Both the position numbers and the translations under genes were made by a program. This document shows, piece after piece, positions 47,882-54,131 of a DNA stretch of 60,515 nt (its first letter is position 1; the number at the start of each line of letters is the position of its first letter). Location of the stretch: assembly GCA_024650045.1 (NCBI GenBank), contig JANKMU010000011.1:1-60515 (forward strand). The letters run 5' to 3'. Under the pieces are notes generated by a model that was not told the origin of the DNA, ran no database searches, and worked only from the letters and a program-made list of their open reading frames with translations. The DNA comes from Mycoplasmatota bacterium. GTDB lineage: Bacteria; Bacillota_I; Bacilli_A; Acholeplasmatales; Acholeplasmataceae.

Positions 47882-49669
47882 CTACGATGTTTCTTGTTCA
47901 TCGTATTGAAGTTTATATAAGTTGTAATATAAACCTTTTTGCTTTAATAACTCTTGATGACTACCCTCTTCTTTTATCTCGCCTTTTTGCATCACAATGA
48001 TCTTATCACTATGTTGAATGGTTGATAATCTATGCGCGACGATAAGCATTGTAGAGATATTCATCATTTTTTCTAATGATTCTTGAATCAACTCTTCAGT
48101 TTCGCTATCAATATTTGCAGTTGCTTCATCTAATATCATTAAGCTTGGTTTATACACCAAAGCTCTAGCAAAAGATATTAATTGTCTTTGTCCACTCGAA
48201 AAGTTGTTTCCACGTTCTAATACAACGTGCTCATATCCATCTGGTAATCTATCAATAAAAGTATTTGCTCCAACATATTCTGAAGCAGATATTACTTCAT
48301 CTTTTGTAATGTTATCATCTCTTAAAGTAATATTTTCTTGAATTGTTCCACTGAACAAGAAGACATCTTGTAACATTTGACCAATATGCTTTCTAAGTGA
48401 TGAACGTTTGATTTTTCTAATATCAACGCCATCAATCAGAATTTGTCCTTTTTGAATTTCATAGTTTCTAACGATTAAAGATAAAATGGTTGTTTTTCCT
48501 GAACCGGTTGCTCCAACAAACGCTACAGTATCACCTGGATTTACTTTGAAACTGACGTTTCTTAAAACCCACTCATCAGGAATATATTGGAACCACACAT
48601 CCTTAAATTCTATAGATCCAGTAAATGATTCAATTTCAACAGCATCAGGTTCATCAACGATATCTGGCTTTGTATCCAATACATCAAAAATCTTTTCTGC
48701 ACTTGCAAATGCGTTTTGCAATGAGTTAAACTGTTCAGCAAGCTGTTGAATTGGTTGAAAGAAATCTCCAACATACATAAAATAACTAAATAAGAATCCC
48801 GCTGTAATCACAGTAGCTAAAACTTCTTGATAACCTACCCAAAGTATAATGACCGATCCAACCATCGATAAAGCATAAACAATAGGGCGGTAAATCCCAA
48901 AGACCATTATTTCTTGAAGATAGCTCTTCTTTAATTTTGTGCTTCTTTCGTTAAACTCTTTAATTTTTTTGTCTTCTTGATTAAAAATTTGTGTTACTTT
49001 AATACCTGACAAATTCTCCGATAGAAATGCATTAACTTCTGATACATTTGCTCTTACTCTACGATAAGAAGCTCTTGAGAACTTTCTAAACAAATAAGTT
49101 GCAAGTAGTAAAAATGGCATAACGATCAGAAGAATTAAAGTCATTTTGACACTGATAATAAATAATACAATCAAAATACCTATAACACTTAAGAAATTTC
49201 TTACTAGATTTAATGCAACATTGGTATACATTTCGCTAATCGCATTAGTATCATTGGTAACTCTTGTTACCAGTTTTCCAACAGGAACTTGATTGATTTG
49301 ACCGATTGATAAATTCTCAATGTGGTTGAAGACTTGATCTCTCAAGTTCACTACTGTTTTTTGACCAACTTTTTGCAACATGACACTTTGAATATATTGA
49401 ACCGTATTCCCGACTGCAAGACCAATAATAAAAACTATATTAATTGTAATAATATAGATAATCTTTTCATCTTTCAATAAAATGTCACTTGCAACAGTGT
49501 CAACAGTTAATCCGATCAATAACGGTGGAATCAGTTGGACACTTAAACCAATCACAAGTAGAATAAATATAATGATAAACTCTTTTTTAAATGGTCTCAT
49601 ATAAGATATTAAACGTCTTAATACCTCTTTATCACTTCGTTCACGAGTATTATCCTTGAAGTCCTTCAT
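47882..49669 (-). CDS. ABC exporter half-transporter, canonical-ATPase subunit (pair 2)
   Basis: 595-aa exporter half: six membrane helices (about 30-320) and NBD. Walker A GATGSGKTT, Walker B ILDEATANID with catalytic Glu, switch His (VAHRLST), but a degenerate signature FSSGQ. It pairs with the upstream gene whose Walker B lacks Glu, the same asymmetry as in pair 1. The ATG at 49669 has AGGAGG 8 nt upstream; a GTG at 49678 is less likely. Overlaps its partner by 20 nt. No regulator gene is adjacent; substrate unknown. Confidence 0.92.
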   Translation of the reverse strand: MKDFKDNTRERSDKEVLRRLISYMRPFKKEFIIIFILLVIGLSVQLIPPLLIGLTVDTVASDILLKDEKIIYIITINIVFIIGLAVGNTVQYIQSVMLQKVGQKTVVNLRDQVFNHIENLSIGQINQVPVGKLVTRVTNDTNAISEMYTNVALNLVRNFLSVIGILIVLFIISVKMTLILLIVMPFLLLATYLFRKFSRASYRRVRANVSEVNAFLSENLSGIKVTQIFNQEDKKIKEFNERSTKLKKSYLQEIMVFGIYRPIVYALSMVGSVIILWVGYQEVLATVITAGFLFSYFMYVGDFFQPIQQLAEQFNSLQNAFASAEKIFDVLDTKPDIVDEPDAVEIESFTGSIEFKDVWFQYIPDEWVLRNVSFKVNPGDTVAFVGATGSGKTTILSLIVRNYEIQKGQILIDGVDIRKIKRSSLRKHIGQMLQDVFLFSGTIQENITLRDDNITKDEVISASEYVGANTFIDRLPDGYEHVVLERGNNFSSGQRQLISFARALVYKPSLMILDEATANIDSETEELIQESLEKMMNISTMLIVAHRLSTIQHSDKIIVMQKGEIKEEGSHQELLKQKGLYYNLYKLQYDEQETS

Positions 49670-51428
49670 TGACTGCACCTCCTTGAACTAAGTTTTCTAG
49701 TGTTTGACGTTTAACCATATCTTGATATAGTGGAGATGTTTTCATAAGCTGTGCATGGTTTCCAATAGCAACTACCTCTCCTTGATCAAACAATATAATT
49801 TTATCCATTTTTTTAACCGTTGATATACGATGAGCAATAAAAATGGTTGTTTTTCCTTTTCTAATTCGATGTAAATTTTTGATGATTGCTTCTTCAGTTT
49901 TTGTATCAACTGCAGATACTGAATCATCTAGTACTAATATCTCAGGGTTTTTTGCTAATGCTCTAGCAATACTAATCCTTTGTTTTTGACCACCTGATAC
50001 TGTTACACCGCGTTCTCCTAGAACTGTGTTAAATTTTTCTTTGAACTCCATGATGTTTTCATAAACATCTGCTAATTTAGCTGATTCTATGACATCTTCT
50101 TCTTTTGGATATTCCATAGAGAATCCAATATTATCAGTAATTGTTTCTGAAAATAAGAAGTTATCTTGCGGAACATATCCAATCGTATTTCTTACAGATT
50201 TTACTGAAAGCCTCATAATGTCATGGCCATCAATAAAAATTTGATTGTGTTCTAGATTATATATCTTAAGTAATAAGTCCACCAAACTACTCTTACCACT
50301 ACCAGTACGACCTAATACACCAACCATTTCACCTGCATTGATTTCAAAACTTACATTTTTTAAAACAGGAGAATCCCCGTCTGGGTATTGAAATGTTAAA
50401 TCTTTGACTTGTATGCTACCTTTTAAATTATCTATGTATTCAACATCTTCATGATCTCTAACATCTATCTCATGATCTAAAAATTTAGCTATTCTTTGTG
50501 CACTACCTTGGGCTTGACTATTTATTTGAATAAACTGAGATAATGCCATTGTTGGCCATATTAAAGCAAAGAAGTAACTTAAATACTCAGTAAGTTGTCC
50601 TGCAGTCATGCCTGTAGCATCACGATTGATAACTAATAAACTACCAAAGATAACAATAAAGAGAATGACGATGTTTAGTGCAACGCCAACTGCAATATTA
50701 ATAATAATTATGTATTTGATAAATTTAATATGTTTATCGTATAAATCTAAGTTTTTTCTACTAAAAAACATAGCTTCTTTCATTTCTCGAACGAATGCTT
50801 TAATAACTGTTATTCCCGAGAAATTTTCTTGAGTGAAGTCGGAAAGTTTCTCAAATGACTCTTGTCTTTCCTTAAATCTTGCTGAGATAGTTCTTCTAAT
50901 AAAAACTAATAAAATAGTTAAAATTACCATTGGAACTGCTGCGTAAAAGGTCAATCTTGGATTTAATCTTGCCATACGATATACAGCAAAAATACCAAGT
51001 GTTAGCCCGTCAATCAACATGAGTATTCCAGGTCCATAAGACATTCTTACGGCTTCTAGATCGTTGATAAAGTGTGCCATCAACCCTCCAACTTTTTCTT
51101 GGTTATAAAAACTTTGTGAGAGTTTGGTCGCATGACCAAACATTGTATTTCTTAATTGATATTCAATTCTTCTTGAAGCCCCGAATATCGTATATCTCCA
51201 TATAAATCTTCCTACTGTAATGATTCCTGCTAATACTGCTATTCTTATAATCGCCGCTTCTACTGCGGTAATATCAGGATTGGATGAATTGAGTGTATCA
51301 ATGATTCCCCCAACTAAACGTGGTATATCGAGTTGAAACCAGTCAACAACGATGAGTACACCAGCCCCTAATAAAAAGAAAAGCGAGTACTTAAGGTAAT
51401 ACTTGCGAAAATGCTTTCCTAGTAACAT
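49650..51428 (-). CDS. ABC exporter half-transporter, degenerate-ATPase subunit (pair 2)
   Basis: 592 aa, six membrane helices and NBD. Walker A GRTGSGKSS, canonical signature VSGGQ, but Asp replaces the catalytic Glu (VLDDSVSAVD); unlike the matching subunit of pair 1, the switch His is kept (IAHRIST). So one of the two ATP sites of the heterodimer is non-hydrolytic. AAGGAG precedes the ATG. First gene of the pair. Confidence 0.92.
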   Translation of the reverse strand: MLLGKHFRKYYLKYSLFFLLGAGVLIVVDWFQLDIPRLVGGIIDTLNSSNPDITAVEAAIIRIAVLAGIITVGRFIWRYTIFGASRRIEYQLRNTMFGHATKLSQSFYNQEKVGGLMAHFINDLEAVRMSYGPGILMLIDGLTLGIFAVYRMARLNPRLTFYAAVPMVILTILLVFIRRTISARFKERQESFEKLSDFTQENFSGITVIKAFVREMKEAMFFSRKNLDLYDKHIKFIKYIIIINIAVGVALNIVILFIVIFGSLLVINRDATGMTAGQLTEYLSYFFALIWPTMALSQFIQINSQAQGSAQRIAKFLDHEIDVRDHEDVEYIDNLKGSIQVKDLTFQYPDGDSPVLKNVSFEINAGEMVGVLGRTGSGKSSLVDLLLKIYNLEHNQIFIDGHDIMRLSVKSVRNTIGYVPQDNFLFSETITDNIGFSMEYPKEEDVIESAKLADVYENIMEFKEKFNTVLGERGVTVSGGQKQRISIARALAKNPEILVLDDSVSAVDTKTEEAIIKNLHRIRKGKTTIFIAHRISTVKKMDKIILFDQGEVVAIGNHAQLMKTSPLYQDMVKRQTLENLVQGGAVNEGLQG

Positions 51429-51537: not shown

Positions 51538-51921
51538 CTATTCAACAATGATTCGAACTGTGTCGCCATCAGCAGATTCTACATTAACAAGTTCACCAAC
51601 TACACCTGCATTGATCATTTCTAATAATGAGTCAATATCGATATCAGATTGTTGTAAGTTGACATTGAATTTTCCAGTCTTAAGTAATTTAGCAAACTCA
51701 ATTGGAATTTGGATTTTTACAACGTCACCATCTTTAGAATCAACAAAGATACGAAGCATTCTAAATGGAGGTTTTTTAACATTAACAAGTTGTTCTGCAA
51801 ATCTAACTTCAGGTTTTTCCATAGCTGATAGTAAGTTTTCTGCTTCATCTGCTTTGATAATTCCTTTTGCTAGTAAATCTAGTATCTTCATTCTTCCTAC
51901 TTTTAATTGATCTTTTGACAT
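51538..51921 (-). CDS. SHOCT-like/YvlB-type small protein
   Basis: 127-aa soluble protein of unknown function, similar in plan to the N-terminal part of B. subtilis YvlB. Residues about 8-35 form a SHOCT-like helical hairpin (KILDLLAKGIIKADEAENLLSA is the core, with the pattern ILxxLxxGxIxxxEAxxLL). Then two strand-helix units (RMLRIFVDSKDGDVVKI..., VGELVNVESADGDTVRIIV). The ATG at 51921 follows AGGTG by 6 nt. Third gene of the DUF2089 operon and a distant paralog of its first gene. Confidence 0.82.
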   Translation of the reverse strand: MSKDQLKVGRMKILDLLAKGIIKADEAENLLSAMEKPEVRFAEQLVNVKKPPFRMLRIFVDSKDGDVVKIQIPIEFAKLLKTGKFNVNLQQSDIDIDSLLEMINAGVVGELVNVESADGDTVRIIVE

Positions 51922-51949
51922 ATCGTTCACCTATCTTTCTATATATTTC

Positions 51950-52360
51950 CTATTTTTTCTTGAGAAGACCTAATGCGTCAGCAACAGATAATTCTCCTTT
52001 TTCAATTTTTTCTAGAATACTTGCTTTAGATACTTTGGGTTCATCTTTTTCAACATCATCATCAACTGCTTCTGGTGTATAACCTAAAGCAATAATTACA
52101 TCATCTAGCATTTTTTTAACTGTTGGATAACTTATGTTAAGCTCTTTTTCAATTGCCTTGATGTTTCCTCTATTTTTTATGAATATTTCAATAAAATACA
52201 ATTTTTCTGTTTCCATGTAATTGAATTTTGATAATGTGAACGATCCTTCTATGGATGTATCACAATGATCACAATGTAGTTTTGCTACTCTTAAATCACT
52301 TTTGCAAATTGGACACATTGATATGACCGGATTAACATTGACTTTATTACTTTCTTTCAT
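51950..52360 (-). CDS. DUF2089-family zinc-ribbon/HTH protein
   Basis: 136 aa. N-terminal zinc ribbon CPIC...CDHC (16-36), the conserved IEGSFTLSKFNYMETEKLYF and IFIKNRGNIKAIEKELNIS blocks of DUF2089, an HTH-like helix pair (about 64-85, ISYPTVKKMLDDVI), and a C-terminal SHOCT-like hairpin (ILEKIEKGELSVADALGLL). Proteins of this type are presumed transcription regulators; function is unproven. AAAGGAG precedes the ATG. Its hairpin matches those in the genes on both sides. Confidence 0.88.
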   Translation of the reverse strand: MKESNKVNVNPVISMCPICKSDLRVAKLHCDHCDTSIEGSFTLSKFNYMETEKLYFIEIFIKNRGNIKAIEKELNISYPTVKKMLDDVIIALGYTPEAVDDDVEKDEPKVSKASILEKIEKGELSVADALGLLKKK

Positions 52361-52373
52361 AATTTCATCTCCT

Positions 52374-52733
52374 TTATATTGTTTTAATCAATATTCTTTC
52401 TTTTGTTTTTGTGTTTATGTTAATTCTTACACCTCTCATCGATATTAAATCTATGAGTTCACTAGGTGACATTGGAAATTGTTCACTTATATGCTCTTGA
52501 CCTTTAAATCGTTTTAACAAAATCCATTTAATTAAAAATATGGGTAGGGGCAATAATAGAATTGTGCCTAGTAGAATGTTTGCTGCTTTTTCATCTGGCA
52601 CCCTCACTTTTATTTTTACAAAACCAGCTCTTTTTGGCTTTCTTTCTTTGTATGGTTTGTATAAAAGTCGATATGCTTTCTTTTTATTTATTTCTTTATC
52701 TTGCAATTTAGTTAGCACTTCATATTTCGTCAT
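52374..52733 (-). CDS. Small membrane protein with SHOCT-like N terminus
   Basis: 119 aa, family not recognised. N-terminal hairpin (YEVLTKLQDKEINKKKAYRLLY), a strand (GFVKIKVRVP), a hydrophobic segment (about 53-72, LLGTILLLPLPIFLIKWILL) and a C-terminal helix-strand unit (ELIDLISMRGVRININTK). The same order of elements occurs in the third gene of the operon, with the membrane segment replacing a soluble helix. Start at 52733 with GGCGGTGG upstream; the longer frame reads through the promoter and is rejected. First gene of the operon. Confidence 0.78.
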   Translation of the reverse strand: MTKYEVLTKLQDKEINKKKAYRLLYKPYKERKPKRAGFVKIKVRVPDEKAANILLGTILLLPLPIFLIKWILLKRFKGQEHISEQFPMSPSELIDLISMRGVRININTKTKERILIKTI

Positions 52734-52773
52734 TTTACCACCGCCTTTATTAATATTTTTAATTTGTACTTTA

Positions 52774-52802
52774 ATTATATTGATTTTTGTTTCATTTGTC
52801 AA
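52774..52802 (-). promoter_or_regulatory. Consensus promoter of the DUF2089/SHOCT operon
   Basis: Perfect TTGACA (52797-52802), 17-bp spacer, perfect TATAAT (52774-52779), 40 nt upstream of the first gene. One of the strongest promoters in the window. Confidence 0.9.
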
Positions 52803-52885
52803 CACTTTTATGCTAAAATCTTTAAAATAATTAATTTTTGTCTTGATTTTATCAATTTTTCCTGTTTTTTTAGGACTTTTTGCGT

Positions 52886-52891
52886 TATAAT
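52886..52891 (+). promoter_or_regulatory. Putative -10 of pepT
   Basis: Plus strand TATAAT, 28 nt before the pepT start; no good -35 at the usual distance. Confidence 0.4.
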
Positions 52892-52919
52892 ATGACATAA
52901 AGAAGGAAGGTATATCAAA

Positions 52920-54131
52920 ATGGACAGATTAATTGAACGCTTTTTACGTTATGTGAAAGTAGATACACAATCAGATCATGAGTCAAATACAACACCCTCT
53001 ACTGAAAAACAGAAAAATTTAAGCAAAATATTAGTACAGGAATTGAAGGCATTAGGTCTGAATGCATTTTTAGATGATCTAGGTTATGTTTATACGAAAA
53101 TTGAAAAGAATATAGAAAGCGCGCCTGCGATAGGGTTTGTTGCTCATGTGGATACTTCTCCAGATGCACCAGGTAAAGATGTAAACCCAAGAATTATTGA
53201 AAAATACGATGGTTCAACAATTCAATTAAATGATAAGTTATCAATGGATCCGAGTCATTATCCTAGTTTAAGTAGAGTTATCGGTGATGATATTATCGTA
53301 ACTGATGGAAACACTTTGTTAGGTGCTGATGATAAATGTGGTGTTGCTGAAATCATGGAACTCGCTGAGTATTTCGTTGCCAATCCAGATGTGAAACATG
53401 GAGACATTTATATTTGCTTTACACCTGATGAAGAAATCGGACAAGGTGCAGATCATTTTGATTACGATTATTTTAAAGCAGATTTCGCTTATACTGCTGA
53501 TGGTGATGAAGTCGGCATTATTGAGTATGAGAATTTCAACGCTGCTACTGCTGTTGTTAAATTCACAGGAAAAAGCATACATCCAGGTTCAGCAAAGAAT
53601 CAAATGATTAATGCGTTGCATCTTGGTATGGAATTCCATGGGTTATTACCACAGTTTTTGAATCCTGCTTATACTGAAAATTATGAGGGATTTAATCATT
53701 TAACTGGTATGAAGGGCGAAGTGGAACAAGCTACTTCTAATTATATTATTAGAAACCATGATATGGAAAAATTCAAAGTTCAGAAAAATGAGTTTGAAAA
53801 AATAACTAAATATATGAATGAAAAATATAGTTATCAAGCAGTTGAGTTATCGGTAAAAGATAGTTATTATAACATGTATGAGGTTATTAAAGATCATATG
53901 CATATTGTCGAGTTAGCAAAACAAGCAGTTCAAAATATCGGATTAACTCCTTCTACAAAACCAATTAGGGGTGGAACGGATGGAGCTAGATTGACTTACG
54001 AAGGATTATTGTGCCCTAATATCGGTACTGGTGGATATCAATTCCATGGTCGTATGGAATTTTGTTCGATTCAACAAATGAAAAAAGCAGTTCAAATTTT
54101 AATTGAAATCGTGAAACTGAGTGTTAAGTAA
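52920..54131 (+). CDS. pepT: Peptidase T (tripeptide aminopeptidase)
   Basis: M20B zinc peptidase releasing N-terminal residues from tripeptides in the cytoplasm. Metal and catalytic motifs: VAHVDTSPDAPG (His and Asp), LLGADDKCGVAE (bridging Asp), TPDEEIGQGADHFD (catalytic Glu pair), GGTDGARLTYEG. The dimerisation domain lies about 210-320. 403 aa, full length. AGGAAGG precedes the ATG. Monocistronic, divergent from the DUF2089 operon. Confidence 0.96.
   Translation: MDRLIERFLRYVKVDTQSDHESNTTPSTEKQKNLSKILVQELKALGLNAFLDDLGYVYTKIEKNIESAPAIGFVAHVDTSPDAPGKDVNPRIIEKYDGSTIQLNDKLSMDPSHYPSLSRVIGDDIIVTDGNTLLGADDKCGVAEIMELAEYFVANPDVKHGDIYICFTPDEEIGQGADHFDYDYFKADFAYTADGDEVGIIEYENFNAATAVVKFTGKSIHPGSAKNQMINALHLGMEFHGLLPQFLNPAYTENYEGFNHLTGMKGEVEQATSNYIIRNHDMEKFKVQKNEFEKITKYMNEKYSYQAVELSVKDSYYNMYEVIKDHMHIVELAKQAVQNIGLTPSTKPIRGGTDGARLTYEGLLCPNIGTGGYQFHGRMEFCSIQQMKKAVQILIEIVKLSVK

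Follow-up and report, generated by a model that had tools for sequence, protein, structure and literature searches.

The locus and its genes

What might three small adjacent genes do together when the products of all three appear to carry a SHOCT-like helical hairpin? The question was raised by positions 1 to 60,515 of contig JANKMU010000011.1 (the window, 60,515 nucleotides in full) of a Mycoplasmatota bacterium, the genome of which (G000) comprises 1.89 Mb in 41 contigs. Translation of the open reading frames of the window confirmed the three genes, all on the minus strand and transcribed in the order C-B-A. They and the genes 3' of them are:

52374-52733, minus strand: gene C, 119 aa (translation, AlphaFold2, family alignment A3, charge and hydrophobicity)
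51950-52360, minus strand: gene B, 136-aa DUF2089 protein (Pfam, family alignment A2)
51538-51921, minus strand: gene A, 127 aa, acidic soluble protein (Pfam, family alignment A1, low-confidence AlphaFold2 model)
49650-51428, minus strand: ABC exporter half, 592 aa, first gene 3' of A (Pfam ABC_membrane and ABC_tran; order in relatives)
47882-49678, minus strand: second ABC exporter half, 598 aa, overlapping the first (Pfam)

The frame of gene C is open 5' up to 184 codons; the ATG at 52733, which follows the promoter and a GGCGGTGG-type ribosome site, was taken as its start. The nearest named record for protein A (94% identity) is from Peloplasma aerotolerans M4Ah. The exporter half at 49650-51428 is a conserved neighbour of A in the family, and a weak terminator-like hairpin (51509-51492) lies within the spacer between the two genes. 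A peptidase-T-like gene, identified by eye from the sequence, is divergent from the operon (window 52733-52920), a position kept in the family and, by eye, in family f5.

A hairpin common to the three proteins

Alignments of relatives were built for A (A1, 36 members), B (A2, 35 members) and C (A3, 26 members), and profile-profile scores were compared with those of 100 column-shuffled profiles per pair. The SHOCT-like model PF22746 scored 27.6 bits with A, above its cut-off of 27, and 15.2 bits, below the cut-off, with the tail of B; at E<=0.01 it matched 36/36 members of A and 23/35 members of B. C had no Pfam match at all, PF22746 included, and no Pfam family was common to the 26 C members, the relationship of its hairpin being seen through profile comparison only. 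When the hairpins alone were compared, A-B scored 40.2, B-C 28.2 and A-C 19.8, each exceeding 100/100 shuffles (best shuffles 15.8, 13.9 and 12.0, respectively), and hhalign gave E values of 1e-6 for A-B and 1.8e-4 for B-C, both over the hairpin, and 1.1e-6 for A-C over 107 columns. Mismatched pairs, i.e. the A domain against the hairpin of C or B, failed the control, as 51 and 2 of the 100 shuffles reached their scores. The proposal that the three linked proteins have one hairpin in common, made by a sequence-only reading of the locus, is thus borne out by significant similarity in every pair.

That reading also took A and C for paralogues. Outside the hairpin A and C scored 26.2, against 19.6 for the best of 100 shuffles, and each has an invariant proline at about the same place (P73 in A, P62 in C). 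Since the two match beyond the hairpin as well, and better than shuffled profiles, the sequence comparison indicates that A and C are paralogues over more than the hairpin. According to the available part of PMC3581485, the classical SHOCT domain is likewise a short helical hairpin attached to unrelated domains; the hairpins described here differ in being of the divergent PF22746 type, N-terminal in A and C and C-terminal in B.

Proteins A and C

Protein A consists of the hairpin (aa 10-37) followed by a strand-strand-helix-strand-strand domain, and C of the hairpin (aa 3-24), a strand, a hydrophobic helix-LPLP-helix segment (aa 49-75), a helix and two strands. The AlphaFold2 model from the C family (mean pLDDT 89.5) has a helix at 49-58, a break at LPLP and a helix at 65-75, followed by the last helix and two strands; AlphaFold2 takes no account of membranes. 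The model of A was poor (pLDDT 63.7). Neither C nor A was clearly matched by any structure in Foldseek and VIA-align searches: the best Z was 2.5 for C, and for A it was 5.7 across the hairpin and 4.3 across the domain, which may reflect no more than a common arrangement. These results have no bearing on whether the folds are novel. PADLOC had no family for either protein. The two differ in net charge (K+R minus D+E), with medians of -6 for A (n = 36) and +13 for C (n = 26).

A 19-residue window with hydropathy above 1.6 was found in 26/26 members of C and in 0/36 members of A. In every C member the hydrophobic core is uninterrupted over 12-20 residues and contains a central proline motif (PxP) with an invariant proline, while the 15-residue flanks are both net basic in 24/26 members, one side being net zero in the other two. 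C is predicted to be seated at the inner (cytoplasmic) face of the membrane, and the model suggests that its segment may dip into the membrane instead of crossing it. Both ends are most likely cytoplasmic, judging from homology, since the part after the segment is related to A and to the XRE-linked domain described below. C could instead span the membrane once, like an ordinary membrane protein, and sense the outside, its last 40 residues being extracellular, as an unbroken hydrophobic stretch of this length in every member would allow; however, the part in question is homologous to the C-terminal half of the soluble A and XRE-A proteins, the flanks are basic on both sides, and the model breaks the helix at the invariant proline, so we consider this improbable. 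That the membrane sensor of the earlier reading crosses the membrane is accordingly doubtful, given a segment with a central PxP, basic sides and a predicted helix-break-helix.

Protein B

B, which had been read as a zinc/HTH regulator, contains a zinc ribbon (aa 16-46), an HTH (aa 50-95) and a SHOCT-like tail (aa 115-135). Its matches to Pfam DUF2089-HTH (E 8.9e-22) and Zn_ribbon_DUF2089 (E 7.8e-15) confirm this partner, as HTH and zinc ribbon (PF09862/PF22747) exceed their curated cut-offs (77 against 33.4 bits and 55.1 against 27.6 bits). PADLOC returned a single weak match for B, and sequence searches of solved structures yielded no usable match to A or B. One might suppose that B is a zinc sensor in which zinc loading of the ribbon sets DNA binding, and the CxxC...CxxC ribbon is indeed present in 31/35 members. 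In the four others (L030, L031, L034 and L026, from two families), however, the ribbon cysteines are partly or wholly gone and the operon is kept, and the candidate targets described below are not zinc genes. Because of this loss the zinc of B seems, from the alignment, to be structural or dispensable, and we set the sensor reading aside as one deserving hardly any credence.

Gene order in other genomes

Two sets of genomes were surveyed, 61 relatives and 295 genomes of the phylum. Several families of the class have the genes in the same C-B-A order. By coordinates, C adjoins B in 25 of the 26 relatives having C; the exception (G034, C5:27217-27497, L110) has a broken remnant of C and A and no DUF2089 match in the genome. 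Across the phylum, 43 DUF2089 genes over the cut-off were found in 41/295 genomes, and 30 of the 43 are followed by an A gene on the same strand, at a distance of at most 1.5 kb. B is adjoined by 20/21 C matches and 32/37 hairpin-bearing A matches, and by 0/19 matches that contain only the A domain. The linkage expected by the sequence-only reading therefore holds elsewhere (C beside B in 20/21 cases, A downstream of B in 30/43), and neither outcome that it had named beforehand as speaking against the module, hairpins without significant profile similarity or genes unlinked in other genomes, occurred.

The DUF2089 genes without A fall into two neighbourhood groups, one with a HAAS-Toastrack partner and the other with a short form of DUF2089 and a small membrane protein. 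DUF4097 was found in 5/5 of the HAAS-Toastrack partners scanned with Pfam, from five genomes, the remaining partners being judged by eye.

Some irregular arrangements were also seen. Small extra ORFs of 46-73 aa lie between B and A in several relatives (extra B-A ORFs at L007:1244-1465, L004:820-990, L012:1911-2114, L015:1917-2120 and L078:3658-3963), A genes are tandemly duplicated at L140:5138-5929, and one locus (L229, G225) has a C-like gene and two A genes in a genome without a DUF2089 match.

An XRE-linked form of the A/C pair

In most of the domain-only A matches the A domain follows an XRE-type HTH; Pfam found HTH_3 in 3/3 of those scanned, and PADLOC matches to the XRE fusion were confined to the HTH part. 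In 20/23 of these XRE-A loci a frame of 72-82 aa lies directly downstream, and its products scored 43.2 with the A domain (best of 60 shuffles 16.2) and 28.9 with the C domain (best of 60 shuffles 18.2). Median net charges were -7 for the fusions (n = 22) and +8.5 for the small partners (n = 20), parallel to those of A and C. Neither the fusions nor their small basic C-like partners have hairpins. At L216:2079-2569 the XRE HTH and the A domain are in two overlapping frames, likely a frameshift or a split gene.

Since XRE-A and its partner match A and C in both homology and charge, the recurrent unit would be an acidic/basic pair of one domain that is joined to an HTH either by fusion or, we infer, by hairpins. 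The hairpin itself, being absent from the XRE-linked relatives of the pair, looks like a connector and not the core. The XRE fusions suggest a second, hairpin-free way to build the same switch.

The promoter and a candidate operator array

Upstream of gene C, on the minus strand, are the following features (offsets from the -35 box):

52774-52802, minus strand: sigma-70-type promoter TTGACA-17-TATAAT, 12/12 matches, 17-bp spacer
52843-52855, minus strand: candidate operator TTGATAAAATCAA, offset -53
52822-52834, minus strand: candidate operator TTAATTATTTTAA, offset -32, 21 bp from the TTGATAAAATCAA site
52771-52783, minus strand: degenerate candidate site with one mismatch over the -10 box, offset +19
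52750-52762, minus strand: candidate operator TTAAAAATATTAA just past the expected transcription start, offset +40

The promoter (52802..52774) is a perfect consensus, as had been noticed from the sequence alone, and a 12/12 promoter is found at about the same position in 24/26 relatives. The candidate sites, which that earlier reading did not mention, have the form TTRA-N5-TYAA, of which 63 were counted in the 26 C upstream regions against 6.1 ± 2.8 in shuffles. In a scan of spacings from 0 to 14, N5 (63) and N8 (38) were strongly enriched and N4 slightly (14), so that the half-sites alternate by 9 and 12 bp with a period of 21 bp. The offsets from the -35 box cluster in the relatives at -74, -53, -32, +19, +40 and +61, and the site over the -10 box, degenerate here, is exact in some of them. 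An exact 21-bp pair occurs in 11 of the 26 C upstream regions; most of the 15 without a pair have single sites at the same positions. Covariation between half-sites was looked for and not found (82/21/19/4).

In a wider survey, covering 700 bp upstream of long DUF2089 genes, a pair at 21 ± 1 bp was found for 22/35 of these genes and for 2/255 other genes of the same loci (Fisher P = 6e-22, computed ignoring relatedness and hence overstated, as the relatives are not independent). The pair was present in 14 of 25 loci with an A partner (C-B-A or B-A; 11 without) and in 8 of 10 with a HAAS-type partner (2 without), in 1/7 loci of short-form DUF2089, and upstream of 0/9 XRE-A genes. In the HAAS-type upstream regions the last site overlaps, by eye, a -35-like TTGAC/TTGAT in 6 of the 9 inspected.

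These patterns suggest that the tandem TTRA-N5-TYAA array with its 21-bp period is probably the operator of DUF2089, although it could be read by another regulator or consist in part of A/T-rich upstream elements. As the peptidase-T-like gene is divergent and its place is conserved, the array may act on that gene too. A rival view is that the arrays are unrelated to DUF2089 and serve strong promoters simply as curvature or upstream (UP) elements. They are indeed A/T-rich and helically phased, the promoters are perfect, and the N5 spacers are A/T even in the inspected loci of 49-57% GC. Against this, loci of 49, 51 and 57% GC also contain pairs, sites are located downstream of the -10 box as well, at least two exact in-phase sites accompany only 2 of the own genome's 41 perfect promoters, and the promoter-plus-site pattern is absent from the 254 phylum genomes without DUF2089 over the cut-off. 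We regard this explanation as very improbable.

Other genes preceded by the promoter and array

The two promoters with at least two exact in-phase sites, among the 41 scanned in the own genome, are those of the C-B-A operon and of an ABC exporter pair on contig C40. The third case, a promoter on C11, combines one exact in-phase site with three that each contain one mismatch; the gene behind it encodes a putative lipoprotein of 149 aa. For the relatives, the two-site pattern alone was rejected as a target finder, being unspecific in A/T-rich genomes (48/61 relatives match, many of the matches coding-like), and the pattern of a promoter plus a downstream site was used for this reason. It occurred 35 times in 22 of the 61 relatives; the reversed-pattern control gave 0 matches in 61/61 relatives and 2 in the 295 phylum genomes. 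Among 30 pattern loci, 15 precede C, 10, in 10 genomes, members of a family of 139-153 aa, 2 a 69-aa frame and 1 a ribosomal-protein-like frame, and 2 precede nothing readable. The 139-153-aa family (alignment A6) has no Pfam match; 8 of the 10 pattern-preceded members have a lipobox-like Cys, and the profile found the family in 12/61 relatives, each of which also has DUF2089. In the phylum, the pattern was detected in 8/295 genomes, all 8 among the 41 with DUF2089 over the cut-off (chance 7e-8 assuming independent genomes, which they are not). These 8 include G040 and G172, whose matches on C5 (before an S12-like ORF, by eye) and C1, respectively, look like chance and are not counted as targets.

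Several observations concern individual loci. The lipoprotein family (L343:1644-2090 and relatives) has extra copies, several with stop codons. No readable gene follows the motif matches of G010 and G028 within the locus (L321, L334). In G012 and G017 the array precedes the 69-aa ORF (L268:4088-4297 and L269:4016-4279, the frame of L269 being 87 aa), which lies, by eye, between Rnf-like and malic-enzyme-like genes; the G012 copy belongs to no known family of Pfam.

With a lipoprotein and ABC exporters under the same promoter-plus-array, the envelope role proposed by the earlier reading gains support that is independent of the look of the three proteins themselves.

A proposed switch

The genes, their homologies and order, the arrays, the promoter and the charge difference were established by computation, and from them we infer how B might read the arrays and repress, how hairpins might dock, how A and C might pair and how the membrane might signal. 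We think it somewhat probable that C, B and A together form an autoregulated (autorepressed) membrane-state switch. B would be its DNA-binding part, occupying each TTRA-N5-TYAA dyad, probably as a dimer; since neighbouring dyads are 21 bp, i.e. two helical turns, apart, several dimers would be arranged next to one another along the same face of the DNA. B would most likely repress the promoter, because the latter needs no activator and the sites, apart from those ahead of the -35 box, cover the -10 box and the beginning of the transcript. With its broken hydrophobic helix and basic surface, C would be anchored in the cytoplasmic face of the membrane; A, the acidic soluble paralogue, would pair with C, and the hairpins on all three would dock B to the A/C pair. 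The docking step is weakened by one reported test, in the available part of PMC3581485, in which the classical SHOCT domain did not self-oligomerise. A disturbance of the membrane would change the A/C pairing and B would leave the arrays, so that the operon, the surface lipoprotein and ABC exporters would be made, possibly including the exporter gene at 49650-51428.

The exporters also suit another explanation, in which B is an autoregulated repressor responding to a small molecule or an antimicrobial peptide that the neighbouring ABC transporter exports, and A and C do not sense the membrane state but have accessory roles in immunity or as chaperones. By a motif rule, an ABC exporter lies 3' of A in 25/39 loci, and in five further loci the ABC start residues are the same and the gene is cut by the locus end; the own genome has the second exporter pair with promoter and array; and leaderless bacteriocin clusters encode short DUF2089 proteins, which were likened to aureocin immunity proteins (available parts of PMC7332713 and PMC10707071). 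Yet in other families of the class (L131-L138) the three genes have no ABC neighbour, the exporter operon is one of three candidate targets in the own genome, and the lipoprotein is the commoner second target in relatives. We consider this explanation unlikely.

Relation to known systems

According to the available text of a survey of PSP systems (PMC11237479), DUF2089 proteins combine zinc ribbon, HTH and SHOCT-like parts and occur in membrane-stress neighbourhoods with Toastrack, and a role from membrane to transcription was predicted for them. The envelope-signalling idea of the sequence-only reading is therefore supported here but is not new, its general form for DUF2089 having been published. 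That text describes no operator, target genes or A/C domain, and the parts consulted of the literature searched held no DNA site, operator or target for DUF2089; as far as that literature goes, novelty lies in the Toastrack-free C-B-A arrangement and its A/C pair, in the XRE-linked form, and in the 21-bp array together with the targets. The four-gene DUF2089-Toastrack context of the survey shares with the present locus the three-part DUF2089 protein, the small operon and a membrane-linked partner, but here there is no Toastrack, HAAS, LiaI-LiaF-TM or PspC gene and the paralogous A/C pair is present instead. Pfam detected no DUF4097 (Toastrack) in A, B or C, and PspA, PspC and LiaI-LiaF-TM are not among their matches; the neighbours are the ABC exporters and, by eye, the peptidase-T-like gene. 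The C-B-A module is thus a Toastrack-free variant of the DUF2089 context. The HAAS-PadR and lia/psp-type PspA-free systems, as described in the same available text, likewise combine a membrane-associated domain with an HTH regulator, partly without a kinase, but use other DNA-binding and partner domains, whereas the linkage here would be by hairpins or fusion. The short DUF2089 proteins of leaderless bacteriocin clusters (DdC and BawC; available parts of PMC7332713 and PMC10707071) also have the DUF2089 HTH beside a small membrane protein, but are about 90-100 aa, have a different partner and lack A and C.

More generally, DUF2089 proteins may be repressors that bind arrays by recognising a tandem TTRA-N5-TYAA code of 21-bp period and are coupled to the membrane by an unnamed pair of acidic soluble and basic dipping domains, the HTH being joined to it through hairpins (DUF2089) or by fusion (XRE). 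We offer this tentatively, as plausible but a little short of probable. If true, many small operons of Bacilli that lack annotation would be explained by a single code and a single paired domain. The regulator family DUF2089 is widespread and can now be tested with a short DNA probe from the promoter, and the sites at which the switch probably acts on the DNA can be read from many related genomes. According to the accessible abstract, Peloplasma aerotolerans, a near relative of the host, is cell-wall-less; by analogy the host is probably wall-less too, in which case it would have no envelope other than the membrane, and a switch reporting the state of that membrane would be central.

The array extends to other DUF2089 contexts of the phylum. 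In five HAAS-Toastrack loci (L144, L145, L168, L170 and L182) no C was found and the downstream partner is a HAAS+DUF4097 protein instead of A, but a long DUF2089 gene is likewise accompanied by the same 21-bp array.
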